The position numbers and the translations under genes are program-made. Of a DNA stretch of 64,000 nt, positions 154-30,000 are shown one piece after another (positions within the stretch are counted from its first letter, which is position 1; each line of letters begins with the position of its first letter). This DNA is from Anisakis pegreffii. Lineage: Eukaryota; Nematoda; Chromadorea; Rhabditida; Anisakidae. Under the pieces are notes generated by a model, which was not told where the DNA came from, did no database searches, and saw only the letters and a program-made list of their open reading frames with translations. The stretch spans positions 62,001 to 126,000 of the forward strand of contig JAPYMA010000351.1 of NCBI GenBank assembly GCA_035041965.1, in the 5' to 3' direction.

Positions 154-3100
154 CACAAATTGCTAGGAAGCCAAGTTTACATCACAGAGGAAAACATCAA
201 TCACATTCAAGTGAGTGTTTGGCTCAACTGAAATCGATGCATGATTGCTATTTCACTGTGAGTAAAAATGGGTTCAGTGGAAAAATTTTGCATCCATCCT
301 TCTCAAAATGATTGAAATTAAACTTCTTTACTTTCACCAGGAGTCACTGAAACGAAACTTCCCCACCCTTAACCAACTTTCTTGTGACAAAATATGCCAA
401 CGAGACGGTTTGAAAGTCACGAATCTACATAAAAAAAGATATATGTAACAAAAAGGTTCACCTGTTCTTGATATTGAGCTTGGGTTGATCTATGCGTCGC
501 ATTGCTCCGATGGTTTCAACCCTCTCACCCCCTACCCCCTACTTCCTCCACCAACTTTCATGCTATGATGAAAGCGAGTTCTAATTTATGACCTAACCAA
601 GAATACAGAAATGTGAATTTTTTTTTCAGAGCATGGACACCATTCAATGTTGGAACGTTTCGGAAAATATCGATCACAATCAGGTGAGTGTTTGGATCGG
701 TAGAAACTGATGCGTGATTGCTGATATGCACTCATGATATCTCATAAATTCATCGCCTCTAGTCTCTTACAATCCGACAAAATTGATCAAATTGGAAGTT
801 TAGCACACGCAAAAACGGGTTTACTTGAAAATTTTGCAAAATTTTGCATCAAATCTTTCTAAAACAGGCTGGAATTGAAATGTTTTCATCAACAGTCAAT
901 AAAGAAGGAAATTTCGTTACTTGCACATATACGAACATTCCAGTTTCACCTCAAAAACTAATACGCCATTAAGGTCATGGCCGTTTTTTGAAGTAAGCTT
1001 GAGTTGAGGTGCACATTCACTCACTTCTGATGGTTCCAATCCTCCCTCTCCCCTCCCTTAACCAACTTTCATGCTAGGATGATAGAAAATTGTGATTTAT
1101 CACCTAACTAAGATAAGTGAATTCTCTTTTCCGAGGAGGAAGACGATCCAATTTTGAAGCGTTTTGGAAAATATCGATTTAATTCAGGTGAGTCTTTAGC
1201 TCAGTAGAAATTGATGCGTGATTGATGATACGCAATCATGATATTTTATAAATTGATCACCTCTAATCTCTTAGAGCCCGTCAAAATTGATTAAATTGGA
1301 ATTTGTTAGCATCCGGGTTTACTTGAAAATCGTTTCCAAGAAATTTTTTCAAAACTGGTCGGAATTGATCTGTTTTCATCGACAGTCACCAATAGAAAAG
1401 TCTTATTTCTTATGCAAATGCCCAAGTGACAGTTTCACCCCAAAAAATTAGCATGCCAGCAATGTTCCACACCTTTTCTGAACTGAGCTTGAGCTGAGAG
1501 GTACGTTCGCTCACTTCTGATGTTTTCAACCTTTCTTCTCCCTTACCTTCACAAAGCTTCATGCTATGGGGATACGAATGGGAAAGCGCTTTTCAGTGGA
1601 TGAAAGAGATCCAGTCTTGATGAGACTGACTGTGTCTAAACTGTTTTCATCAACAGACACTAGAAGAAGAAATTTTATCTCTTATGCATGTGCCAATGTG
1701 CCAGTTTCACCTCAACAAACTAGTATATCAATGATCTTCCATCTCTTTTGTGAACTTAGCCTGAGATGAGCTGCGTACCATCATCATCCTTCATGCAATG
1801 ATGACAAGAATGTGAAACCTCTTTTCAGGAAATGAACAAGATTTTGGTTTCAATCCTTTCGGAATATATCTACCAGGAGCAGGTGAGTGTTTGGCTCAGT
1901 TGAAATTGATGCGTGACTGGTGAAGCCTCTATTCTAATTAAACTATTCTATTCCTGTTCTATTCCAAGGAATAGAATCGAGCAGTTCGGACATGAAGAAC
2001 GCACAGAATAGAATAGAATAGAATAGAATAGAATAGAGCCTTTTTGAGCTCGAAAGAACAAAACAGAATAGAACAGTTTCCAACAGATTTGAAAGTTTTT
2101 GTATGAACCATTTCAAAACTGATTGGTATTGGTGTTTTCATTGACAGTCACTAAAAGAAGACGTTTTATTTCTCACAATTAGGCATATGCCTGCCAATGG
2201 GCCAGTTTCACTTTAGAAAGCTAGTATATCAACAATGTTTTACCTCTTTTCTGAATTAAGCTTGAACTGAGCTGCACATTTGAAAAGATCTGATGGTTCC
2301 AGCCCTCCCTTCCCACCCCATCCACTAACACTCATCAGCCGTCCTGCTGCAATGACAGGAATGTGAAATCTCATTTCAGGAGATGAACAAGGTCCTGAAC
2401 TCAATCGTTTTCGTAGATATCGATCACACTCAGGCGAGTGTTTGGCTGTGTTGAAACTGATGCGTGATTGCTGATAACATGCACGATTTGCTATGAGTTT
2501 ACTCTCTTCTATTTTCTTGCGCCGCAGCAAAATTGATCGAATTGGAACGTGTTAGCTTCCGCAACAATGGACTGAATGAAATATTTTTGCAGCGAGTCTT
2601 TTTAAAATTGGCTGGAATTGAGCTGTTTTCAACAATAGTCAATGAAGGAAGGAATTTTTAAGTAGATGCCAACTTGACAGATCCACAGCACGAGTCCAGC
2701 CCAGTATACCAACGAAAGTTTACTCATTCGCTTTAATCCAGTTGTTTCATTTTCTCAATCACTTACGACCGACCATCAATATGAAATCTGTGAATTTTCT
2801 TTTAAGGAAACGACGAATTTCCAATGTCGAAGCATTATCGAAAACACCGAATGCATTCAAGTGAGTGTTTGACGCAGTTGCACTTAATGCGTGGATATCA
2901 ATAGAATCATTTGACTTCTTATCGAGCTTTTGGTCATTCTTTATTTCCTTTATTGTCTGGTACAAATTGGTTCAGACTATCCTATCAAAGTGTTTAGTTG
3001 GAAAATATTGCATTTGGTAGCACAGCAACAAGAGTTCGTGCGTTGCTTCAAAATGCGTTGCATGTAGATTTACTTCAATACTATAAAATTCGTCATAACG

Positions 3101-6100
3101 CGAAAATGTGTTCATAAGCTGAAACCAGTCGATATCAGAGCAGAATTGATCGTGAGTAATATCAGACTACATCAGGGTGGATATCACAATTCAAAATACA
3201 ATGGATGCATACTATATGTTAAAAGTTTTCTCGTTAATAGCCAGTCATAAGCACATCCGTAAAATGAATATGAATGAATGTCTATGAATTAAAATCGATT
3301 TCAGCTGGACCAATCGACCAATCCAACAGAGCATTCTCTGAGCGTGGTGAGCCAATCACACTTTTCCTATCTATACTAAGTACTGACGAATACTGGAGAC
3401 TGTTGAATGCATCGGAAATTTGCAATGAAAATGTGCACTTTGTTCGAAATAATGTTCATCCTCTTGGCACTTGCACTCGACTGATAAGTTTCAATGAACG
3501 ACCGATACTGGACAGATTTGTAGTTCAAAAAAAGCGTTTAAGTGAGAGAGGAAATTCTTTTTCTCAATTATTCGCCGATGAAAGAGCTTCGATCCAATCA
3601 AGCAAACTGAAAAATAAGCCAGTGAGTATGAATGAAATCTACAAGCTGAATTCCTGATTTATTGCTGCTTTGCAAATTCACTTTAATCCAGTTGTTTTAT
3701 TCTCTCAGTTCCATATGACCGATTGCCAATGTGAATATGCGAATTTTCTTTTTAGGAGACGACGAACTTCCAACGTCGAAGCATTTCAGAAAACACCGAT
3801 CACATTCAGGTGAGTGTTCGTCGCGATTACACTCAATGCGTGGATATTAACTGAGTCATTTGACTTCTTATCGAGCTTTTAGTCATTCTTTATTTCCTTT
3901 ATTGTCCGGTACGAATTGGTTCAGACTATCCTATCAAAGTGTTCGCTTGGAAGATATTGCATTTGATCAGCATAGCAACAGAGGAGTTCACGCGTTATTT
4001 CTAAATACGTTGTGGTGTAGATTTCCTTCACCACTGTACAATTCCTGGCAACGAGAACAATATGTTCATGACCTGGAGTCAGTCAATATCAGAGCACAAC
4101 AGAGTAATATTAGAGTATATTAGGACGGATATCACAATTCAAAATAGAATGGATGCATAGTATACGTTAAAAGTTTTCTCATGAGTAACGAGTTCGTAAA
4201 GTATAATATGAATGAATACCTCTGAATCAAGACATGTTTTCAGCTGGACATACCGGCCGATCCAACAGAGCATCATTCTTTGATCGTGGTGAGCGATTCA
4301 GTTACCAATTCACGCTTTTTCTGTCTAAATTAAATGCTGACAAATGCTGCAGATTGTTAAACACATCGGAAATTTTCATGCAGTGCGCTTAAGATAATGT
4401 CCGTGTTAGTTCATCCACTGAGCACTAATACTCGACCTATAATTTTCAAGTATCTAACTGATACTGAACAGAACAGAACGTCAAAAAAGCATTTAAGTGA
4501 GCAAGAGAAAGTTCTTTCGCTCAAAATCAGTTATTTGTCGACGAAACAGCTTCGATGCAATGAAATAAAATCAACAATAAGCCAGCATATATGAATGAAA
4601 TGTGCACTCACAAGCCTTTAGTTATAGTTGCTCTGCAAATTCATGTTAATCAAATTATTTCTTAAATACCGCCATCATTATGAAATCCGTGAATACTCTG
4701 TTAAGATAACGGCGAAGAGGCAATGCTTATGAGTGGTCACAGACCGTATCGATCACATTCCTGTAAGTGCTGAAGTGTTTGACTCAACTAAGCCTAAAAC
4801 ACAAAAATCGACAGGAGAACCTCGTTCATGATAGCACAAATATTCAATATTTGTTCCTTTCTCTTTCTCTACTATACGATGAATTTGGGACAGTGAAATT
4901 CTTCTCATGGTTTACTTATGAGAACAATTTGAAAATGCAGTACTAGAAATCATCTGGCTGCAATTCTCCTTACCATCTCGAACCACTCTGAACTTTTGAC
5001 TTATCCTTGTATTGATGCTCACGCTGAGGCTCATGCCAGGATCTGAGTTCACGATGGGACTAGGCACTGATTAGGTTAACCGATAAGACTACTACACTAT
5101 GCCAAGATACACATTTCGCCATCCTCTGATAAAAATTCGCCTTCGATTCACGTCAACGGCAAAAACTCTTTGAAAACAAAAAAGTTATAATATTCGACGA
5201 TGCAAACACTTCCCCAGTAGGCCAATGCAGCAGAGACGTATCACACCTTACGATGGATCGAGATCAACATATTCAGAATGTGAAATTTATCAAAGCCAGC
5301 ATTCTCAAAGTGTATTCTCAGATGGAACTGTTTATTTATTTTTTCTAATATCGCTCGAAGCATGCATGTACAGTGTCAAAACTAAGCCTTGTTCATTTTT
5401 TCTCTATTTTTCAAACTTCTCCAACAAGACACCGGATTTCAATTAAGAATGGAACGCAGACCCTCTAAGCTGACCGGATCCTCAGAGCCCAGCGTGATCT
5501 CAGCACACCACCAGACCATCGCACAGTAATTTCAAATCTATTTACGTACTCTTTTCTCTGAACTCACAACATCTATGCATGCCGGCTTTTTCGATCTAGC
5601 TGTGATATACGAATTGATAGAAGTGCAATGTAACAGAATAATGCTGAATTGAAGTTGTTTTCAGTGGATTCAGATGAGAACGATTTGCTACGTCATCAGG
5701 GTAAGTGATTCAACTGAATCAGCATACTTTCCTTGCTGTGATTCGGTGGTGTTGAGAATCGTTGGTGATTTATTAGAGTGAATGTTCACAGTTAATGTTT
5801 TTAATTCGGAATAAACCAAGAATTGAGTGATTATGAGTTGCGAATGCTCCGTTCCTTACTTGCTCATCGATAAGGCACTTTTCAAGTAATTGGATCCTTC
5901 CAAAAATTAGACGCAGTGTCAACATAATATCACGCCTTCTGAAGCATGAGCTAAAGCTGCCTTGCGTGTTGATACTATCGTGATCGATTCGTCTGTTATT
6001 TTTTATGTTGCCATTGGGGATCTTTCAAACTACAAATTGACTGAAATGTTTTTCTTGGAGCGCAGACGATTTCATACTCCGATACCCTACCCTATGATCG

Positions 6101-8223
6101 CATATAAATGAGTGTTTTCTTAGAGTGAAACAAATGCGAGTTGTCACTTAAATGTTCACTTATAACGTGTATATATAACCTTCATTTTTAAATTACCTGA
6201 CTAAAGACCGCTGATTTGAAATGTCAACGATCATATCGACACCAACATTTCCACAATCTCCAACCCATAAAAATTGATTTTTAAAGCAACGCTGCCCAGT
6301 TTCTCGTGAAGGCGTTCAGTGAAAATCCTCAGTGTGGCTGAGAACCTGTCATGGTCATCGTCATTGAAATGAAACTTCGATTTCACAACTGAATCATTGA
6401 CCTTGACGACTGACTGCAGTTTTACTGGTGGCACTTTTATTATTTTAGTGTCATTCGAAGAATATCGGATGTGATTAAAACATCCTCTTACAAAATTGAT
6501 CTCAGCTAAATCCATCACGTCAACCAATAAAATTCGTCAAGATGACTGATTTAGTTGTGCAGTCACACTTTATTCGTAGCATTTCAATGGTGATAACATC
6601 GCATATTCTCTATTTTATTGGATTTTTAAACTGAATGACTTCATGTGAGAGTGGATAGTCTAGCTGTTGTAAGAATATCAACAGAATTATGAACTGATAT
6701 TCGATATCCTGCATGTCCCACATTTTGAATATTTAAACGTCGATCTAAACCACAGAGCAATCGCTGATATCAGGCCCAACCCGCAAGCAGAAATATTTTT
6801 TGATTTCTGCCACAGCTAGATCAAGATAATTTTGGCCTATGCAGGTAACTTAGAAACGATGTTTGTTTCACATTTTAGTCTCGACTTCCTTATATTTCGC
6901 TTTCTGAATATAGGGAGGTCGAGACCGAAATGTGAAACAAACATTAACTCACACTCAATATTATTCTCGTTTTGAGTTCCAAATTCAGTAATATTTATCA
7001 AGCTCTTCACTACGAAAGGTCTGTCAGAACTCAGTTGCTTGGTGATATATTTTTGAAAAGGACCTTGATGTTGTGAATGTGACAGATTAGTTGCACAGGA
7101 TCTTCACCCTTTCAGATAACGATGATTTCACTGGTAACGAGGGGATCTTCCGTGTTCCTTTAACTCGCCATACTATTGGTAAGTAATATGTCATGAGTGT
7201 TTTTTAGTCATTTGCTAGACATTGTGATATATTTCAAGAGCTGATGATATATTTTCGAAAAGGATTTTAATGTTGATGCTGTGAATGTGACAGATTAGTT
7301 GCACAGGATCTTCACCCTTTCAGATAACGATGATTCCACTGGTAACGGGGGGATCTTCCGTGTTCCTTTAACTCGCCATACTATTGGTAAGTAATATATC
7401 ATGAGTGTTTTTTAGTCATTTGCTAGACATTGTGATATATTTCAAGAGGTCATGATGTATTTTCGAAAAGGATCTTAATGTTGATGTTGTGAATGTGACA
7501 GATCAGTTTCACAGGATCTTCACCCTTTCAGATAACGATGATTCCACTGGTACCGGGGGGATCTACCGTGTTCCTTTAACTTACCATCCTATGTGTAAGT
7601 GATATATCATGAGTGTTTTTTCAAATCATTTGCTAGACATTGTGATATATTTCAAGAGGTCATGATATATTGTCGAAAAGGATCTTAATGTTGATGTTGT
7701 GAATGTGACAGATTAGTTTTACATAATCTTCACCCTTTTAGATTTGGATGATTATTCCACCCGTACCGGACGATTCTTCCGTGTTCCTTTACATCGCGTT
7801 CCTATTGGTAAGTGATATATCATGAGTGTTATTTTAAGTCATTTGCTAGGCACTGTGATATATTTCAAGAGGTCACATTATCTGTAAAGCAAGCACAATT
7901 ATGATTCATTTTGATGTATGACACACAATTCATTTTGATATATGACACACAATTCATTTTGATGTATGACACACAATTCATTTTGATATATGACACACAA
8001 TTATGATCACTATGGTTGTGACATTTATCAAATTCGAAACACACTGCTGAAATTGCGAAAAACTTCTTTTGGAACTGAATGAAGACTCATGCATTTTTGT
8101 GCGTGTTCGCGATGGTGCTGAATGTGAATGCTTTGGTCTAGAACAGCAATGATGATTGAATTGCAATCTTGGTTCATTTCAGACGTACGACCACCATCAT
8201 TCGGCGGAGTAGGACCATGGTGA
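154..8223 (+). CDS. Mini-exon array gene A (3' part), repetitive basic protein
   Basis: No known family recognised. Fifteen short exons join in one frame: 154-210, 630-683, 1829-1882, 2380-2433, 2807-2860, 3305-3346, 3756-3809, 4244-4288, 4706-4762, 5665-5700, 7116-7178, 7324-7386, 7532-7594, 7742-7807 and 8183-8223 (stop TGA 8221-8223). All internal exons are multiples of 3, begin with two codon bases after AG and end with one base before GT, so any subset stays in frame. At least 266 residues are visible; the start codon and any signal peptide lie left of the window. The modules fall into types: an acidic start followed by a basic end with YRSHS or RKHRSHS, a short SNRA type, and four near-identical IFRVPLTRH modules. 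The exon at 2380 uses a GC donor. The end could differ, because TGA overlaps a possible donor at 8220 that would leave phase 2. The exon structure is seen in the sequence; secretion is inferred from gene B next door. Confidence 0.68.
1131..1187 (+). pseudogene. Decayed type-A mini-exon
   Basis: This segment matches the neighbouring type-A exons up to a good GTGAGT donor at 1188 and would read DDPILKRFGKYRF in the family frame. Its acceptor has changed from TTTTCAG to TTTTCCGAG. Using the available AG gives a 52-bp exon, not a multiple of 3 and in the wrong phase. It is probably skipped. Confidence 0.5.
1591..1640 (+). pseudogene. Truncated type-A mini-exon lacking its donor
   Basis: After TTTTCAG at 1591-1597 the sequence resembles the first half of the exon at 1136 (GAT-GAA-AGA-GAT-CCA-GTC-TTG). 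It then runs straight into the intron motif ctgttttcatcaacag at 1641. The second half of the exon, its donor and the first part of the intron are missing, so this copy looks like an internal deletion of one module. Confidence 0.45.
2005..2037. repeat. (AGAAT)n microsatellite
   Basis: About six uninterrupted copies of a 5-base unit lie in an intron of gene A. Just upstream, 1957-1965 and 1968-1976 form a perfect 9-bp inverted repeat (TTCTATTCC-AA-GGAATAGAA) built from the same words. Confidence 0.85.
2807..4762 (+). repeat. ~950-bp two-exon module, duplicated
   Basis: A block holding one type-A exon and one type-B exon is repeated head to tail: A at 2807, B at 3305, A at 3756, B at 4244, A at 4706. 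Spacing is 949 and 950 bp between A exons and 939 bp between B exons. Introns are also similar between copies; for example, ttatcgagcttttggtcattctttatttcc at 2921 recurs at 3871. A faint third B-like remnant may lie near 5219. Confidence 0.75.
6859..6944 (+). ncRNA. 86-nt near-perfect hairpin in an intron of gene A
   Basis: Arms at 6859-6896 and 6907-6944 are 38 bp long, with a 10-nt loop. As RNA on the plus strand they pair throughout except for one A-C mismatch, with three G-U wobbles. Size and shape suit a pre-miRNA-like or hairpin-siRNA precursor within the intron between 5700 and 7116. It could also be a small inverted-repeat element. I do not recognise a known miRNA seed. Confidence 0.4.
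7080..7830 (+). repeat. Four tandem 208-bp exon-intron modules, type D
   Basis: The exons starting at 7116, 7324, 7532 and 7742 are spaced 208, 208 and 210 bp apart and are 63, 63, 63 and 66 bp long. Introns of about 145 bp are nearly identical, including the gtaagtaatat donor region and the cttcaccctttcag acceptor. The first two exons differ by two or three bases; the fourth is the most diverged. This looks like recent unequal exchange of a whole exon plus intron. Confidence 0.85.
7905..8003. repeat. 24-bp minisatellite
   Basis: About four copies of a 24-bp unit (tatgacacacaattcatttt plus gatg or gata) start at 7917, 7941, 7965 and 7989, with gatg and gata alternating between copies. They lie in the last intron of gene A. 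Confidence 0.85.
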
Positions 8224-8393: not shown

Positions 8394-11300
8394 TTGTCGA
8401 AAGCAAATCATTGTTCACAGTATGAATCATCACATTGTTTCATTCAAAAGAAATCATTCCGTGTGTGTAAGATCGGCGGAATTGGAAGATAGCAGTGGTT
8501 TCTGTTCTTGTGTGAAGACTGTACGGTTTCCGTATTCAACTCACTTCACACCGAATTCACCACAGCATAATGAAGACATTGCACAAAAGATAGTGAATTG
8601 AACTGCGGTGATAGTAGAAACGTTTCCTTTGAATTTTGGACCTTGAGAAGGAGTTTTTTCCACACCTTCAAGGCCACTTGTTCAGGCCGGAATGTGTAGT
8701 CTCGAGCTGATGAAGAGAACCCCACAGATTGATTTTGATATGAGTGAGAAGATTTCTTTGATGAAAGTTTGTTTTGAGTGAGTGGTTGACAGAGGTTGAT
8801 GCGGTTAACGAAACTGTTAACGGTGATGTTCGATAACTGATCAATCAAAAACTTAACATGAATAACTTGCAATTCTCAAACCCAGATAGAATTAGCGGCG
8901 TCTACCATAAACGATAGTGGCTAATTTTCACTTCACACTGATTCATTAGGTGGACAAGGTGACTGAAACTGATGAGTGCATAAGACATAAGCTAGAACCG
9001 GTTGTTTTTACACGCAAATGAACAGAGATTATCGTATCATTTACGTTTGGTATGAAAATCTCTTGTCAAATTCTGCTTACCACAATAAAATGCAGTCCTC
9101 ATCGGATTTTATTGATTTTCCGGATCCTTCCTCTTCACATGTCGTCTCATGTCGTTGTAAGAAGTGTTATGAACCCTGACAATTATCATCGTCGGTCGGT
9201 ACAAAGTGGAACGAAATATTATCACATTGGAGTGTTTACTATCTATGAGCCAGAGCACAAAAAAATTGACAAAACAGAAATACATTGAAATTTATTAATT
9301 CTTCTTCCGTCGTATACATACAAAAACGCTGCTTAACGCGGTTGCCAACAACACAGAATGGTTGTAATTAATGAGTAAGAGGACAGTAATATACAACGTG
9401 GTTTCCTTTTGACATTCAACGTGATTTTTCCAAAACCTGCTAAAAATGAATGCGCCCTAGCAAGACAATCGTCACCAAGAAATTCCTTCGAATTCAGTGC
9501 AATCGTTCTATCGTTGTCGAAAAATCAACGACGATAACTGACAAAAAAGGACTAACGAAACGATGCACTTCTCTGGCTATCCGCTGCATAAAATTCGATG
9601 TGTCGAGCACTCGCCGCTGAAATTGACATATAAGAGCAAAGTCAAGCAGAGGCATTCTCCGAATTATGACACTTAGAATTGAGAGTTTCGTTTTGAATCA
9701 CATCAAGTCATAAATCTGACCACAGTTATGACTTACCACAAAACATTCATTATCCTACATTGAATATGAATAAACTTGCTTTGCTAAACAATTACTCATT
9801 AAGCTACAAACCGTTGAAACACAACTCATAATGGATGCAAAATTATTTAGCTGGCACCAGCCAACCCAAATCACCACATTGTAAACTTAACCAAACAAAA
9901 TATCAACAATATCACTGTCAAACTACTCCAAGAATTCAGAGCATAGGAGAAAATTGAGAAGGTGGTGTTTGATTAGAATTAGAGCCGTCACCGCTGGTAA
10001 ATGACGGAACGTGACCTGACGATTTGCCTAAGAACTTTTGTCTAACGACAGTTTGTCTAAAGACACGTTGCCTAACGGACGGTTTTTCAATGGATATTTT
10101 GCCTAATAGGCAAACTTTCCTTAGCCAAAACGTCGTTAGGCAACATGTCCGGATATCATGACAGAAGTGTATTTGAATTTGGAAACCATGTATCTCCTAG
10201 TCAGTATCGATAATTTTCAAGTCACCAATTTCCTGAACCACCTAGGACTCACCTGATGGAACCTGATCTTTGAGAAGGTGGTGTTCTCATGATCACTATT
10301 TCGAGCCTCCAATTCATTACGGATCAAACGACTTTTTCGTTGTCATGGCAGAAGCGTCAAGCGATCTTACAAGAACACATTTTTCTGCCATTAGGGAAGA
10401 ATAGCTCCAGTTCAGTTAGCAAAAATCGGAAAACGTTTTTCGCCGAAAATTTTAAAAAATTGATTGAAACATTTGATGAACGCAGTTCAGCCAGCCCAAG
10501 ACTAACAAGAAAAGAACGTGACTCAGTGACTAGAGATCTGTTGGGTCCTCTCATGAGCTTGCGCGCTCACTGCTCATTGTTCAACTCATGGTTGCACTAA
10601 ATAAATATTTTGCTCGTGCTCATGCTGAATGCACCAGTTCATGCTCATCGACCAGCTCATGCTCAGCAATCTTGTCCTGACCGCACAAACTGTCATCTGT
10701 CTCATGTGATTTGCGACACGTGTACGAGCAGAGCACTTGATTATTCGCGAGCACTTTGTTCGCAAGTCGCTCATCGCCGCATTCACAGTCGCCTAAGGAA
10801 CAGACAGGCGATGAATCCATTGCAATGAAATCTTTTTATGTTCGCTAAAAGGTGAAATTAACGCAATAAATTTGAGGAATGGCGCATTAAAAGCAATGAA
10901 TTTAAATGCATTCAACGTGCAATGCATTCAAATCTGTAAGTTCGAAGAGAAGAGGAGTGTTCACCTATGAAATTTATTCTTTTCTTCAGCAAACATAAAA
11001 AGAGATATTTTAAAGTCAAGTCGTATGCAATATGTACCGTGTGATCTATCTGGCATTTTCTTGAATTTGAATACATAGCAAAATTCAGGACCAAAAGCGA
11101 AACAGTTGACTGATCAACATGAATAAATTCCCTCTGTCAGTTTGGGAATTAAGCTCATAGTTCTCGTTTCAATCAATTCATTTCACCTTTTTCTCGAACC
11201 ATGATTTTATTTTCTTGGGACAACAACGCATATAAACGTGTCATAAAACGAACACAGGTCACATAACGGGCCGCCTGAGCATCGTTGAAATATTCCAACA

Positions 11301-11725: not shown

Positions 11726-14523
11726 ATGCACATCACTCCGATCGTTGTTTTGGCTTTGCAACTCAGTTGTCTTTTCGCCAGCGCTTGGGTTTACGACCTA
11801 GCACCTGGTACTTTAACCACGCGTTTACAACCTCCTAACTGGTACTCTAACCGCGCTTGGGTTGACGGCCTACTACCTGGTACTTTAACCAATCATTTTT
11901 ACTTTCCCATGGATGTTCCGTTGTGGTCTTGTTGTACCACTGACGAGAGTTTAAAGAGTCATTTAACATACCAATGGCTATGAACCAATCATAATCAGAC
12001 GCAAAACAGCGTTCCTGGAGACCCGAATTAGTAAATATGTTGAACCGACGTTGAGCATTGCTGAGAGTTACAATCATTCACATTGTGGTGTCAGACCTGT
12101 TGCTTGTAAATGATCGTGCAGAATTTGACTAAATTGGAATATAGTATCAGCTTCAGTCTATCTTCACACGATACAATGGTCGTACCGATTCAATGTTACC
12201 TTTGAAGCATAAACTTGATGCTCCGCTAAGAGGAAATTTTGAAATGTGACCAAATTAAAATCTGAGAATCCTTTTTTTCAGGAGAACTAATTCTCTTTGC
12301 AAGATATCGGCAACAATATCGTAAGTATTTCGTCTCAATTAAATTTTATTCGTTAACGTCAGTAATAACATTTCCAGCTTTATCTATGCACATAAGGCAA
12401 TGTTTTGGATCATACAGTGGAGAATTATACACACACCTCGATACTCTTTATATGCACAACACTGGACAAATCGCTTTTATAAACTATACATTCTACGATT
12501 ATTTCTTTCTTCTTCATCATTCCGACAAATTTGAGTGAATTAGAATATATCGGCTAATCCAACAAGGCGTTCAATAAATTTTGCATCTATGACAACGCTA
12601 GAACAAAACTATCAGTTCGACGAAAAAACTCGGAGAGGAAGCAAAAAAGAACTTCATTTCAAAATGCATCACATCTTACCTCACTCGCAATTCAGTAGTT
12701 GTATCGAGTTAGTATTACTTCTCAAGCATTTGCTGTTCCATGACGATAGAGAATTGCGAAAGATGACATCACTAAATGCTGTCACACTATTTTCAGCAAA
12801 TGACCGTTCGTATACAGATTATCAAATACAACGCGGTGAGTATTTGGCTCCGTCAAACTTTAAGCGTCCAATTCACCTGTGGCATATCACTTCATTAATG
12901 CTTACATTCTAATTTCATCCCTCTTACTTTCTTATTATCCCACAAAACACAGCTTCAGCAGTCGAAAAAAATCAGGTGATCGCAAGACACAACGAAAACA
13001 ACTAGTTGAATATGCGTTATCACTTGCGAAAGATAACATCATTAAATATTAAGGTTTTGTGATTAATGCTGTAGCGTTGCATCAGCAGCTTATATCACTT
13101 CAGTAAATTCTACTTCTTTTTTCACCGTTCAAAAATATGAATAAGATAAAATTAGGAATCAACATCAGCAATGCCACACAAAAACCATTTTCATATTACT
13201 ATGAATGTATACCGTATATCAGCAATGTAGTGCTTATTGTTAGAGAGGTACCTTTGGAAATGTTCCTAAAATGTTCACAAGTTTTCGTTATGATCGAACA
13301 CAAGCATAAATGCTCGAATTTCTGAAAATCATTGCTTACGCTAACTTTAAACTATTCAAATTATATCTTCTTAACTCCCTGTTTAAATTCCTCGAACTGT
13401 ACATAACGTGATGGAATTACAATGTGACTCGAGATTGCTTTCAGCCGATTCCACCGACCCAGCTGTCAGCATGCGATATATTGAACGAAGTAAGCAGTTT
13501 AACCATAAAATCATTTCGTTATCCACAAGAATCGCGGATTTTTTTTCGTAAAATCGCGATTCATCTGAATGCATTTACACGGCACTGTATTGTGGGCTCA
13601 GGGAAATGTTATCTTTCCTTCATTGAGCACACGCATCAGAGCAAGCTTTTAGACATCGACTCATTTTGAACTGATGTACATTCAAAGAAAATGGCCGAGA
13701 GAATAAGCTCCGTTCTTTACGTGTTTGCCGGAATTATGCTTTCCAGGCCACGAATCAAACTCAAAATAACCCAATATATCGTCAAAGATTCATCCCTTCC
13801 CAGAGGGCAGCGTTGCGCTATCACATTGCTTCAATCGTTTCTTTACCTCAAGCAATGCTCAAAAAACCAATTCTGAGTTTTGATGCATTAGATGAACTTA
13901 CTTTAGCATCTTTTCAGCTGAGCCTATAAACCCATGTATCTTAAAGATCACAAGTCAACGGTACAAAATTACGTAAATGAACTGAGCGCTCTCCCAAGAA
14001 TTTTATTAAAGTTCTGAATTCATATTTTATATCTTATATCTTTCATATTTTATATCTTAATTATAAATTGTAAATAAAGTCAATCCCCAATTGTAAGCAG
14101 TTAAATGTCCACTGGAACCGTCAAATAACCGTCCATCGCGCATTCAGTCCGCAAACAGAAAGATCTGTTGGTTCTGTCATGTGTATGTACATTTTTGGCT
14201 TATGCAGATAGCTCAAATATTGTGTTCATTTCAGGCAATGGCCCTGGCACTTCTTCATACAGCTGTAAGTGATTCACCCGCAAAATTTCATTTTATATTC
14301 TCAACTTTACGGTCGTAAACAATTTGTTTAGTGTAAGGGGGATACTGGAACTGACAATTATCTGCAAGGGAGTGTTTTTAGAAGACCTCTGGATGCTCTT
14401 CTCGGGATGTTTCTACTTTGTCTAATGTACATTATCATTACAGACAAGTATGAAACAGTCGAGCAAGGCGCACCTGCCAGTGAAACATTTTACTCGTCAA
14501 ACAGTGAGACTATGTTCGATTAA
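11726..14523 (+). CDS. Mini-exon gene B, small secreted protein
   Basis: No known family recognised. Six exons join in frame: 11726-11807, 12282-12320, 12797-12835, 13445-13489, 14235-14264 and 14444-14523 (stop TAA), giving 104 residues. Exon 1 encodes a signal peptide (MHITPIVVLALQLSCLFASA) and ends in phase 1. The four middle exons are 39, 39, 45 and 30 bp, all phase 1-1. The last exon encodes a Ser/Glu-rich tail ending ETMFD. Exon 2 (LFARYRQQY) resembles the RFxxYRSxS ends of gene A modules. The intron after exon 3 starts gtgagtatttggctccgt, like the type-A introns of gene A, so the two genes are related. Exon 1 can also end at 11879 in the same phase. The product is inferred to be secreted; its role is unknown. 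If exon 16 of gene A were skipped, its array would splice in frame into exon 2 here. Confidence 0.7.
11781..11892 (+). repeat. Duplicated exon-1 end of gene B with three donor-like sites
   Basis: GCGCTTGGGTT..GAC..CTA..CCTGGTACTTTAACC occurs at 11781 and again 72 bp later. A third GGTACTCTAACC lies between them at 11841. The donors at 11808 and 11880 are 72 bases (24 codons) apart and leave the same phase, so the exon could be extended in frame. Confidence 0.6.
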
Positions 14524-22400: not shown

Positions 22401-24544
22401 TTGCTTTCAAACACATCCTCGATTCATTGCTTTATTGCATAAGTTGTTTAGAACTAATTTATGACTTCATTTGATTTCGAAATTTTTATTGATATGATAT
22501 TACCTGATTGTCAGTGTAGCAACGTAACGGTACCCGGACAATTTGCCTAAAAACGTTTTGCCTAAGGACAGCTTGCCTAACGGACAGTTTGCCTAACGGA
22601 CAGCTTGCCTAATGGCAATTTTGCCTAATGTCATTTTTCGTAATTGGCGTGCGAGATTGTTAGACGCACCCGTACAGAACGTGCTGGGCATGTTCATCTT
22701 GTGGCTGTTATTAGAATATCTCTACATATCGAAGTTGGTGATTTTGATGGCTTCAATCAAAGTCAAGTTTTGACCAATGCAGTGATCAAAAGCAATCAAC
22801 GTGTCTAGTTTATCTTTATCACAAGGGATGGACAGTTTGCTTCAGCAGTCTCCTTCAAGGAACCATGTTTGGATTCATACACAACACACTTCCCATGAAA
22901 ATAAAAGATGATATCTATAATTATAATAATTATGCATGTCAAAATGAAATTGGGCAAAATGACGTTAGGCAAACTGTCCGTAAGCAAACTGTTCGTTTAT
23001 CGGGGATAGTGTACTGAAACTGTAAATAAATTAGACTGCTCATGGTTCTGTCGAGAAAGCAGTGATCTGTTTTCATCACGGTTATGGATAGTCCGTAGAG
23101 TTTGTTTTAGTTCAAAGAATGCATTTTAAGTCCTTTAGTCCGCTGTATACAATCCATCAACTTGTTCTCCCACCCGTTCATTACCCGTTGAGCTGCTCTT
23201 CCATCTATTTGTTACCCAGTTGCTTGCTCTCGCACTTTCGGACCTCTTTAATCCGTTCTCCTACCTGTTCAAAATCCGTTAGACCATTTTCCGGCCGATT
23301 CAGGACCCGCTGACCCATTCTGACGCCTGCTCATAACCCGCTAACTCATTCCCTTACCAGCACGTTACCCATTATCCCGTCTCCCTATCTTTTGCCAGTT
23401 CGTTGATGTATTTTCCCACATTTGACAATCCGCTAATCCAAGTACAATCATTAACTGTTATCAACAGGTATAACAACGTCAATTCAAACAAATCACGATT
23501 TTCTTTCATTCATCCTTGCTACCTTGACTTTGCAATGTGAGTGCCAAACTGTTCATACGAAATCGTGGTCCATCGTTCATATTATCAATTCGACTTCTTT
23601 ACTAATCATTCACTTCTTAAACTCATTATGTGTGGAGGAAAACTGAGACAAAAACGAAGCGTACGAACATGATTACAGTCAAATTTTGAATTTAATATTA
23701 AGCAAATTTTACTGATGATGTGCATTAGCAATGGGAACTCACATCATCTATTGTCCTAATTTACGTTTATTATTATTATTTTGTAGAGCATAATACCTCT
23801 CTGATTAGTCATTCGTAAGTGAGCAATTGATGACCCCAAATATCATTTTGTAATATTTCATTCGGGTATGGAAAAGAAATACATACTCTCATTCCTGATT
23901 AAACGAAGAAAAATTCGTCTGATGATCAGGAAATGAATTCAACATAAATAAAAACCAATGGTTCTTTTTGATCACGGAGACAAGCGAATGAGAGAGTGGA
24001 GAGCTTGAGCAAAAATAGACATAAGACTAATAAGACCTCATTTGAGTGAACTTTCAATAACTCAAACCTTGATTTGATCGACCTTTAGCGGTTGTAACTT
24101 TGTTGGTTTGCTGGCTTCGTTCCTTTTCAGATCACCGTTTATCATGCCATTCGGAGTGTTTGACTGCTCCTTACGAGCCGCACTCAGTTTACGATTCGTA
24201 TGGCGAGCTCTCACCTTGCCTTCATCGACCGAATTGCGACCCATTTCAAATACAGTATCTTCCTCCTTCGTTGAATTCAACACAGGAGGATTCCTTTGAC
24301 GAACAGTGGTGACCTCGTCTGATGGAGATTCATTTAGATGATCTGATTGATGCGGCAGAGATTGGCTGATTATATTAGCTGGTTCATGGGATGCACATCG
24401 TTTGCCTGATGCGGTATTAGAATGACTGGCGGATGGTGTTTGGGCATCACATGAAGCACGAGGTTTTTGTTGGTGTAATTGGGACGACGTTTTTCGTTGT
24501 TTTCTTGAAGATGCAATTTGTTGATCGTCATCATCAAGGGTCAT
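16406..24544 (-). CDS. Cyclic-nucleotide-gated cation channel subunit (CNGA/TAX-4 type)
   Basis: Pore-forming subunit opened by cGMP or cAMP in sensory-neuron membranes. Twelve exons in coding order: 24544-24068, 21553-21298, 21039-20926, 20446-20236, 20144-19986, 19516-19340, 19234-19141, 18650-18495, 18069-18019, 17551-17386, 16965-16832 and 16627-16406, giving 738 residues in frame. An in-frame stop lies just upstream of the chosen ATG. A disordered N-terminus covers residues 1-200; S1 is near 223-244, S2 near 252-275, S4 near 327-350. The pore filter TIGE is at 429-432, S6 reads [11 protein letters not shown], and the C-linker is near 465-548. The nucleotide-binding domain has FGELSIL and RRTA (627-630); the Arg and Thr there contact the nucleotide in CNGA channels. 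A short coiled-coil tail follows. The S1-S2 loop is very short. Orthology to tax-4 or to cng-3 cannot be settled here. Confidence 0.95.
22535..23003. mobile_element. GCCTAA-rich element with long inverted ends, in channel intron 1
   Basis: The left end (22535-22650) carries six GCCTAA words about 15-16 bases apart, linked by CGGACAG. The right end (about 22945-23003) carries the reverse complement (TTAGGC, CTGTCCG). About 300 bp of unrelated AT-rich sequence lies between, with no transposase. It is probably a non-autonomous foldback-type element. A shorter relative lies at 10018-10150. Confidence 0.5.
23140..23440. repeat. Degenerate pyrimidine-rich tandem repeat
   Basis: About seven degenerate units of 35-45 bp built on CCGTT-A--C--TTCTCC-ACC-GTTC are found in channel intron 1. 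The local base composition (C and T rich) differs sharply from the surrounding AT-rich intron. Confidence 0.55.
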
Positions 24545-27027: not shown

Positions 27028-30000
27028 TCAGCTTTCAGTCCATTCCTCTTGTCGAAATTGATATTCTGCTTGATGCAACGTTGGATGAGAGGGACGATTC
27101 CGTTTGAAGAATCCACATTTCCAGAATATCAAAATTAAGATGACCAATATCAAAAAACCCAGCGCTGCAGCAACCGCTATAATCCACCACGGAATCGGTG
27201 CCATCTCCTGGATTGCAGGTCGATCTGGATAAGCATGTGTTGATGCATAAGCAAAATTATTCGACGTGTCATCCTCTTCGATGCCTTGTTCAGGATCTAG
27301 TATAAGACGTCCTGATGAGCTGATCTCGACGTAAGTTACATCGTAGTAATCCTTAAATAAATTGTTGAACTTGAACCAAACAACTGGTAGATTATCAGTT
27401 CTAACGGAAATAAGACCACGATTAACAATGCCAAACGAATTGAAAATCAGATGGGGAATAGCAAATGCACTTTGGATTATTTTATAATACGATAGACTTT
27501 CTCGCTGTGACGTGACTTGGATTACTACATGTCACAGTTTGTATAAGTTGAGTCATGAAGGATGATGTTCAAGTAAAAGGTGATGCTCACCTCAACAAAA
27601 GTAGCGTTCCAAAGACGTGCACGAAACTCCATCAGTGCAGATGCATCGACATCCAGAAAATCGAAGTGACACGTTACGGTGAAGCATTTCGCCGTTTGAT
27701 CGGCACAATTCTGCAAAGCGATAGATTCATCTGAGCAGTTCTTTACCAAGACAAAAATCACATATTTCATACACAAGAAGCATATTTCACGGCCCAATCG
27801 GGTTTGACAAATGATGTATCATAAAGTGTTTTGCGTTATTACCGCGAGAATTCTTTCTTATGGTTGAGCAGTTGGATATCAATGTTTTCAATTTGAATTT
27901 AATTTCATTTATTACGGTGGTAACTTCAGAGCTTGGAACGTTGAAGGTTATGATGTTTAATGCTTGAATCTGTACTCACTCATTAAAGTAAAGAAATAAA
28001 ATGCGTGCTGTGAACAATGATCTGTTTCGAAGGTTTTGCAGCAGGCTACTGAACGTAATCATAAAAAAAATACTTAAATACTTACGATACGAACGATTTC
28101 CACTTCTTCACCAGATTTCTCCTTGATTTTAGTCGTTTTAATTCGAAGCTCTCGCGATGGTCTCGCTTCTGCTTTTTCTTCTTGAGGCGTTCTCTGTAAC
28201 GATGTGAGCATTATTCAATGAAGTCAGCAGTTAATGTCTTAATGCAATAACTCGGATTTCATCATTAGTTTTCCCCGCATAATTTGTTTGCGTGTCATGG
28301 AAGAACTGTATTTTTTGTTGCCATATAAAATGGATTCACAAATAGTCAATCAATGAATAAACGAATGAATCTTCTGATGAATACTGATACCTTAACTCGG
28401 CGACTGATGGCATCTTCAGACGCGTCACTGTAATCAGCTTCTGAATCAAAGGACGTTCCTGAATCCAAATACAATTTCAGCTGCAGTGGATTAACCCACT
28501 CAGTGGGTAATGCCATCGAACATTGTTTGACAATGTTCTCGTTATCTGTGTTCGTCGTTTGTATTGTTGGCATTTCCATCAGATATAACGCCCATTTGCC
28601 CTTTGAGAACACACTGGCTACTTGGTATGGCCAATCCACCTAGAAAATAATGCCACGGTGATATATTTCAATTGCCCATGCCAACAAATAAACACTCCTG
28701 AATTGTACATTTTCCTCGAATTCTGTGACCTTGGCCAAAATGAGTCAAATTGAAAAAAACGGTCATCAAATCTGAACGTAAAAATTTCGTTCACCTGAAC
28801 CGTTACGTTGTTAACAGACCACGGTCCTTGATTTGTGATTGTGTATTTATGTACAACCAACGGACCAATATCTTCATCAAATTCCATCCCGGTTTCACCT
28901 TTCAAATCACCACCAAACCTTCAAATTTTGATTTGTGAGAAAATACGATAAACTGCTTTCGGACTCTAGAATTTTCATCCAGATTGCAAAAATTATTTGC
29001 AGAAAGCATAAAGTTATGTGTACATTTGCTGTGAATAGCAACTAAGCCTGTTGGTGTTATTTTGTAGGCATTCATTTAACATCTGTGCTGAATACTTTAA
29101 ACGAATTTGTTGCATTTCAAGCTGAGCATTCCATATTAGTGTATCGCACTGAAATGCACCATTTGACTGTGGTGCATAAGAAAATGTGAAAAATTTTGTT
29201 AACTGATCTAAGCTAAACGTAGTATATTTAATCCTAAACGATGGAAAATTTGGTTTTAAAAATGCTAGATATGTTGGAAAAATCAAATTACCTAACAATC
29301 GGAGGATCCGAAACAGCGGTCATATCGAGTTCAGCTCGTTTAATCACGCGAACAACCGCCTGCCAGTCATTATCGTCAAGGTTGTTCTCTTCACTTGTAC
29401 TATTCACATACGCACGGAATTCAAGTGGCTTGCCCAGTCCTTCTGTTTTACCACGAGCAAGTTTGAAGCTCAATTCGAATTTCAACTGAAATCAACATAG
29501 GTTAACAAATGAAGCATGAATTTCTGACGGAAAAATTAGAGATTTCTGCAAAATAATGAATTTGGATTTATCCAATGAAGCTGATAATTTTTGAAATACA
29601 TCGATGTGGTTGGCAGTTCCATCTCCCCTTGATCTGTACTTTCAGTCATTACTGAAGGAAACGATTCAAGTGATATGGTGTTCAACTTGTTTAACTTAAC
29701 TGATAGAGATGGACTATTATAACACTTGTTTTAATTACTGTCCTCCCGCACAGCTAGTTGAAGAGTACAACTGGCTGGTTTTGTTACATTCATCGCATCG
29801 TTTAATCGATATTGGTTTCATGAAAGCAGCAAAACGCTTACCTTTTTATTTGGTTCCATTGGATTACCAAGCGACAGAACTACGAGATTATCAAAGAAAC
29901 CCTTCAGATTCACAGATCCACCCTTCTTGCTCAGAACGGGTACATCCAATTCATCTGAGTTATACTCAATGAATAACATCGCTTCATAGGCACGTTCTCC

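Follow-up and report, generated by a model that had tools for sequence, protein, structure and literature searches.

The systems closest in layout to the locus reported here are the micro-exon genes (MEGs) of flatworms and the bicycle genes of aphids. In schistosomes, the blood flukes from which the layout is best known, MEG exons are described as mainly 36 bp or shorter (PMC8293314) or as 3-81 bp in length (PMC10526429). Under one published rule, a gene counts as a MEG when it possesses seven exons or more, half or more of them shorter than 70 nt and divisible by three, with a run of at least four, and the same report describes ten MEGs within one region of Hymenolepis microstoma chromosome 6, sharing a common amino-acid motif and expanded by tandem duplication (PMC7653826). 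Bicycle genes contain ~17 small exons on average, almost all internal exons starting from codon position 2, and encode putative effectors that evolve rapidly (PMC9168663). In a review of helminth genomes, MEGs are placed among the candidates for antigenic variation, with the conclusion that antigenic variation of the unicellular type appears absent in worms (PMC4413821). MEGs are reported to be difficult for both gene finders and RNA-seq aligners (PMC7653826), so that more may hide in published nematode genomes. No paper on a nematode micro-exon gene was recognised by title or abstract start among the open-licence PMC papers listed, and a Haemonchus paper, in the passage concerned, names microexons merely as an aligner option (PMC4054779). 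Among anisakid proteins, the Anisakis allergens Ani s 10, 11 and 12 are described as repetitive or orphan (PMC7397233).

The locus compared with these systems lies on contig C267 (186,088 bases), of which a stretch of 64,000 nucleotides (C267:62001-126000) is referred to here as the window; the letters A, B1, B2, C, D and E are gene labels given here. A first-pass annotation had described 14 consecutive exons of 36-66 bp, each a multiple of three and in phase 1-1, without a stop before a final TGA. All of these exons are present (window 154-7807) and constitute exons 4-17 of a longer sequence model, gene D, whose first exon resembles a signal peptide and lies 2.2 kb ahead of the window; the model joins 18 exons into an open frame of 325 aa without internal stops and ends at the TGA at window 8223 (Table 1). 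Each of the 16 internal exons measures 36-66 bp in phase 1-1, and every intron interrupts a codon behind its first base. The accompanying statement that all splice sites are good applies to most of them, but not to exon 7 (GC donor), exons 8 and 12 (AAG acceptors) or exons 10 and 17 (TAG acceptors). An open frame of 127 aa at 3274-3654, considered as a long exon, was set aside, as it has no Pfam match and its duplicate copy stops early (judged by eye).

Because every intron of gene D follows a first codon base, any ordered subset of its exons stays in frame, and by computation each such subset is also open across its joins. Stop codons arise at 0 of the 153 forward joins and would arise at 12 of the 136 backward joins, a contrast that rests on two T-ending exons and is given as a fact rather than a test. 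The encoded protein contains no cysteine past residue 20, is rich in G, R, D, S, T and H, and carries both acidic and basic stretches, features that together suggest a disordered protein, predicted to be secreted. The short repeated modules, the leader and basic stretches such as RFGKYRS and HFRKHRS also bring to mind a polypeptide precursor cut into short peptides of neuropeptide or antimicrobial type; by eye, however, the modules are not flanked by regular dibasic or amidation sites, and such a precursor is considered very improbable.

Table 1. Features of genes D and E and of the duplicated cassettes of gene D. Positions refer to the window unless prefixed by C267.
Feature	Position	Strand	Description
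D exon 1 (leader)	C267:59792-59873	+	MRTTLIVVLVVQLSCLLAIARELPAKS; signal peptide by eye; directly after gtttcag
D exon 2	C267:60395-60451	+	upstream of window
D exon 3	C267:60759-60794	+	upstream of window
D exon 4	154..210	+	57 bp, 1-1, QIARKPSLHHRGKHQSHS
D exon 5	630..683	+	54 bp, 1-1, HGHHSMLERFGKYRSQS
Decayed D exon copy (approximate limits)	1134..1187	+	donor and similarity to neighbours kept; outside D model
D exon 6	1829..1882	+	54 bp, 1-1, NEQDFGFNPFGIYLPGA
D exon 7	2380..2433	+	54 bp, 1-1, GC donor, DEQGPELNRFRRYRSHS
Duplication of ~970-bp cassette, two copies	2726..4660 (2726-3697, 3676-4660)	+	75% identical; two micro-exons per copy
D exon 8	2807..2860	+	54 bp, 1-1, AAG acceptor, NDEFPMSKHYRKHRMHS
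D exon 9	3305..3346	+	42 bp, 1-1, GPIDQSNRAFSER
D exon 10	3756..3809	+	54 bp, 1-1, TAG acceptor, DDELPTSKHFRKHRSHS
D exon 11	4244..4288	+	45 bp, 1-1, GHTGRSNRASFFDR
D exon 12	4706..4762	+	57 bp, 1-1, AAG acceptor, NGEEAMLMSGHRPYRSHS
D exon 13	5665..5700	+	36 bp, 1-1, DSDENDLLRHQ
Tandem array of ~208-bp cassette, about four copies	7040..7875	+	one exon each
D exon 14	7116..7178	+	63 bp, 1-1, first of four cassettes of ~208-bp array
D exon 15	7324..7386	+	63 bp, 1-1, cassette 2
D exon 16	7532..7594	+	63 bp, 1-1, cassette 3
D exon 17	7742..7807	+	66 bp, 1-1, TAG acceptor, cassette 4, +3 bp
D exon 18 (terminal)	8183..8223	+	VRPPSFGGVGPW, then TGA
Candidate D polyadenylation signal AATAAA	8388..8393	+	165 bases past stop
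E exon 1 (leader)	11726..11807	+	MHITPIVVLALQLSCLFASAWVYDLAPG; directly after tttcag; donor weak, uncertain
E exon 2	12282..12320	+	39 bp, 1-1, ELILFARYRQQY
E exon 3	12797..12835	+	39 bp, 1-1, NDRSYTDYQIQR
E exon 4	13445..13489	+	45 bp, 1-1, DSTDPAVSMRYIER
E exon 5	14235..14264	+	30 bp, 1-1, NGPGTSSYS
E terminal exon	14444..14523	+	phase 1 entry, KYETVEQGAPASETFYSSNSETMFD, then TAA

The claim that such an array lies beyond chance was borne out when AG..GT intervals of 24-100 bp were scored with simple, untrained nematode-like splice weights and no frame requirement. The plus strand of the 10.6 kb D region contains 14 strong intervals, 12 of which are multiples of three; all 12 are open in phase 1-1 (nine of them in 0-0 as well), and the remaining two begin at the acceptor of the terminal exon. 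By comparison, 300 dinucleotide-preserving shuffles of the region gave a mean of 0.19 phase-1-1 intervals (maximum 2), and nine control pieces of 10 kb from five other contigs, read on both strands (18 strands), gave a mean of 0.17 (maximum 1). At lower thresholds, multiples of three account for 18 of 25, 15 of 19 and 15 of 18 plus-strand intervals. The minus strand of the region yields two phase-1-1 intervals, five of its six strong intervals being multiples of three; overlapping intervals on this strand sit in a 24-bp tandem repeat near 7904-8002. Among the genes of the cluster described below, the shuffle test covered D alone.

Beyond what the first-pass annotation could cover, gene D is one of six plus-strand genes that lie within 72 kb of contig C267: A (C267:4620), B1 (34581), B2 (38982), C (48963), D (59792) and E (73726, window 11726). 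In each of these genes a splice acceptor immediately precedes the ATG, and the exon that the ATG opens encodes a leader that is hydrophobic by eye and related among the genes. The position of the ATG immediately behind an acceptor in six genes suggests a site of spliced-leader trans-splicing or, alternatively, an intron in the 5' UTR. A whole-genome search with a degenerate DNA pattern of the leader exon returned, at zero mismatches, five sites, namely those of A, C, D and E and one at C145:112503; at one mismatch it returned seven, one being B1, and with two mismatches the total came to 62 forward and 62 reverse matches, against 13 and 26 in the control. B2 was found by reading the contig and is absent among the leader-pattern matches listed. 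No promoter word common to the six C267 genes was found above chance.

The seventh leader, on C145, opens a gene resembling A, and C145 ends 7.5 kb beyond it; on these two grounds C145 may adjoin C267. From position 112488, C145 carries this A-like gene, with multi-exon units in tandem up to the end of the contig; a guess at its second exon was dropped, as it gave phase 0 and a stop. Compared with A, its upstream DNA differs at 10 of 299 positions, exon 1 at 18 of 67 and the next 200 bases at 57 of 196, so that exon 1 has diverged no faster than its intron, while the near-identity of the upstream DNA suggests that the promoter recently underwent duplication or gene conversion. Genome searches with the modules of D, one B2 exon, the modules of the gene A array, parts of B1 and C, and one D cassette matched C267 only, plus the C145 end for A; the D query recovered 14 of its own 18 exons, such that short modules elsewhere could be missed.

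Models of the neighbouring genes resemble that of D in phase. With hand-picked borders, B1 comprises four exons and 107 aa (two internal exons), B2 eight exons and 627 aa (six internal), and C ten exons and 230 aa (eight internal), the last with a terminal exon of only five bases; in each, all internal exons are in phase 1-1 and an in-frame stop closes the model. E has six exons, four of them internal micro-exons, and likewise ends at an in-frame stop, its first donor being uncertain. In gene A, an array holds 20 open exons, each with a length of 75 or 84 bp and divisible by three, and the gene has further exons besides. The exon search in A, B1, B2, C and E looked for phase 1-1, which makes the uniformity of phase partly an outcome of that choice; independent of it are the joins, which are open, and the closing stops of B1, B2, C and E. 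The 400 bases past the stops of B1 and C showed no poly-A signal.

Several further features were observed around the cluster. On the minus strand of the window, an open frame at 27031-27531 scores 26.6 bits with PF00357, the cytoplasmic region of integrin alpha (cut-off 20.2), and probably represents the final exon of an integrin alpha gene close to the cluster. Short tandem repeats at window 22557-22638 and 10037-10077 are composed of the similar units TTGCCTAACGGACAGC and TTTGTCTAACGACAC. At C267:180636-182883, six tandem units of ~437 bp each contain a 66-bp interval, VIKQHYKE(D/E)ILRVTNQRL(D/N)ST, in phase 1-1; this bin also holds six intervals in phases 0-0 and 2-2, and the repeat is possibly non-coding.

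The repeat structure of the array genes indicates how the locus has been built. In addition to the duplications of ~970 bp and ~208 bp listed in Table 1, older units of ~500 bp are found in D within 506-2658, and exon sizes differ between aligned copies in steps of 3 bases (63 to 66, 42 to 45) or 9 (75 to 84); the introns of gene A differ by 2 bases, too, between copies. Read from the DNA, the locus has grown by duplication of in-frame cassettes of exon plus intron. In gene A, divergence of exons is below that of introns in each size class (0.061 vs 0.089, n=10; 0.106 vs 0.149, n=9), and the variable columns are distributed over the three codon positions as 5/2/9 and 6/4/11, a combination of constraint and codon-position pattern that fits coding in phase 1.

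Divergence within gene D follows a different course. Between the copies of the 970-bp duplication, exons differ at 17 of 96 positions vs 105 of 558 in introns (Fisher p=0.89), and exon differences fall on codon positions as 5/8/4, without a third-position excess; there is no sign of coding constraint in this pair. Within the 208-bp array, exons differ more than their flanks in five of six pairs, with Fisher p below 0.01 in three pairs including copy 4 (the pairs not being independent). In the pairs involving copy 4, synonymous (0.26-0.27) and non-synonymous (0.25-0.29) divergence are alike, while among copies 1-3 the full-codon substitutions (2, 8 and 6) are all amino-acid-changing. Taken together, the parity of exons and introns in the 970-bp pair and the rates in the 208-bp array suggest that the D exons are weakly constrained in sequence at best, and positive selection on them is a possibility. 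Exons that diverge as fast as their introns are also what a decayed, untranscribed array would present, as are the weakness of some splice sites and the decayed copy at ~1134-1187, for which no acceptor usable in the frame of its neighbours was seen by eye. Set against this are the 12 phase-1-1 intervals, where shuffling gave 0.19, and the 18 exons that join into one open reading frame, complete with leader, stop and poly-A signal, so that decay, or chance alone, is regarded as a scarcely credible explanation. On the sequence evidence, we hold with high confidence that D is a real gene and that the cluster represents a real gene family.

The source of the DNA had been named as a nematode, in agreement with the 120 Col_cuticle_N matches in this genome and none in 14 control genomes. 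An exon of contig C50, used as a control in the protein database (listed match from ncbi, uniref, nr), is identical to an Anisakis simplex protein at 187 of 194 aligned residues; a 50-residue gap in that protein relative to the exon, set aside in this count, is read as an unspliced intron in the C50 sequence. The genome is taken as that of Anisakis or a close anisakid. Matches to COX1 with stops under table 11 occur on contigs C496 and C446, and one of these may represent mitochondrial DNA copied into the nuclear genome.

Searches for relatives of the locus returned little. The D protein had no homologue among 3114 candidates at E<=1, in a search that is weak for short diverged modules, and a gene A module query had no match at E<=0.1 among the best 7986 candidates. 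As gene finders have difficulty with micro-exon genes (PMC7653826), neither negative result demonstrates absence in relatives. Rfam gave no matches at the gathering threshold, NCBIfam and solved structures gave none for D, and Pfam gave D a sub-threshold match only: residues 1-76, covering the leader and a Thr-rich stretch, align with New_glue (PF21827) at 24.2 bits, below the curated cut-off of 31. New_glue is a family from Drosophila.

This match, sub-threshold as it is, bears on the question of whether the locus encodes structural proteins (mucin-, glue-, eggshell- or cuticle-like) from constitutively spliced genes that grew by tandem exon duplication, with phase-1 symmetry a footprint of duplication and no isoform diversity produced. 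Consistent with such genes are the Thr-rich exon of B2, the Pro-rich and GYPNGY repeats of C and the Gly-rich repeats of A, parts that would not need variation, as well as the lower divergence of gene A exons relative to introns. The modules of D, however, are diverse and irregularly spaced, with splice sites of unequal strength, and the New_glue score falls short of its cut-off; the structural account is given close to an even chance.

The alternative is a nematode micro-exon gene system yielding many secreted isoforms by exon skipping, as proposed for schistosome MEGs; that the array gives rise to protein variants had been offered in the first-pass annotation as a conjecture. Applying the rule of PMC7653826, D qualifies in every respect, with 18 exons, 16 of them micro-exons, in a run of 16. 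Among B1, B2, C, D and E it is the only gene to do so, which speaks against such a system: C (10) and B2 (8) have sufficient exons, but B1 (4) and E (6) do not; the share of micro-exons is sufficient in E (4/6) but not in C (4/10), B2 (1/8) or B1 (0/4); and the run is long enough in E (4) but not in C (2), B2 (1) or B1 (0). The array exons of gene A (20) all exceed 70 nt. Further support for skipping can be found in the openness of every ordered exon subset of D, in the non-standard sites of exons 7, 8 and 12, and in the genome being that of a parasite's close kin. Symmetry permits frame-neutral skipping without proving it, and a system of this kind is judged plausible at somewhat less than even probability. 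Because of their non-standard sites, exons 7, 8 and 12 would be the likeliest optional exons, and optional inclusion is the most likely behaviour of the poor-site exons of D.

It is considered highly probable that D is one gene of a single-locus family of predicted secreted, modular, low-complexity proteins, grown by cassettes, in an anisakid nematode. What can be read directly from the assembled bases comprises the exons of D with their phases and open frame, the duplicated cassettes of D and A, the cluster, and the relatedness of the leaders. In the proposed mechanism, each gene opens with a related leader exon at a 3' acceptor, probably a spliced-leader site; the locus has grown through duplication of exon-plus-intron cassettes; and introns placed after the first codon base allow a cassette to be gained by duplication, lost, swapped or skipped while the frame is kept. 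Transcription, secretion and optional inclusion of exons are inferred, as is a function on exposed surfaces or within the secretions of glands; secreted proteins of modular build, destined for such a surface or secretion, are the most likely product of the locus. The broader proposal of a system that nematodes invented independently, in which at least six genes with interchangeable phase-1 cassettes, together with skipping in D (16 exons, up to 2^16 open isoforms), would supply varied host-interface proteins, is advanced tentatively and at a probability below even. As anisakids are both zoonotic and allergenic, unannotated secreted proteins of this kind would be of practical interest.

Comparison with the described systems bears out part of what had been claimed for the array. 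The likeness to schistosome MEGs was upheld for layout: D shares with them a leader exon, many very small symmetric exons, the lack of a known domain and occurrence in a parasitic worm, and the accelerated evolution reported for MEGs is counted as a further likeness (PMC4015677, PMC4350168, PMC4413821, PMC8293314, PMC10526429). The internal exons of D are larger, just 2 of 16 being 36 bp or shorter, and no sequence relation to schistosome MEGs was found among the 3114 candidates at E<=1. The claim that no equivalent family has been described holds in that no relative was found in the libraries searched, but it overlooked two systems close in layout, namely the tapeworm MEG cluster (PMC7653826) and the aphid bicycle genes (PMC9168663). 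The tapeworm cluster is arranged like the C267 locus and differs in motif and phylum. The proteins of the locus are repetitive or orphan like Ani s 10, 11 and 12; the D and gene A module queries had no match in the protein database. Bicycle homologues are reported to carry CYC motifs (PMC9168663) and belong to insects, not worms, whereas D has no cysteine past residue 20, and the D protein query found no homologue; in common with bicycle genes, D has many exons (18) of the same phase, with 16 of 16 internal exons starting from codon position 2. D is thus akin to MEGs and bicycle genes in layout, and relatedness to any of them would be putative. As the layout has been described in flatworms, a nematode locus that shares it and for which no related sequence was detected would represent convergence, and the locus is apparently a convergent nematode form of the micro-exon secreted-gene kind. 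Considered together with the aphid bicycle genes, it would suggest that strings of small exons in the same phase recur in fast-changing secreted proteins of parasites.
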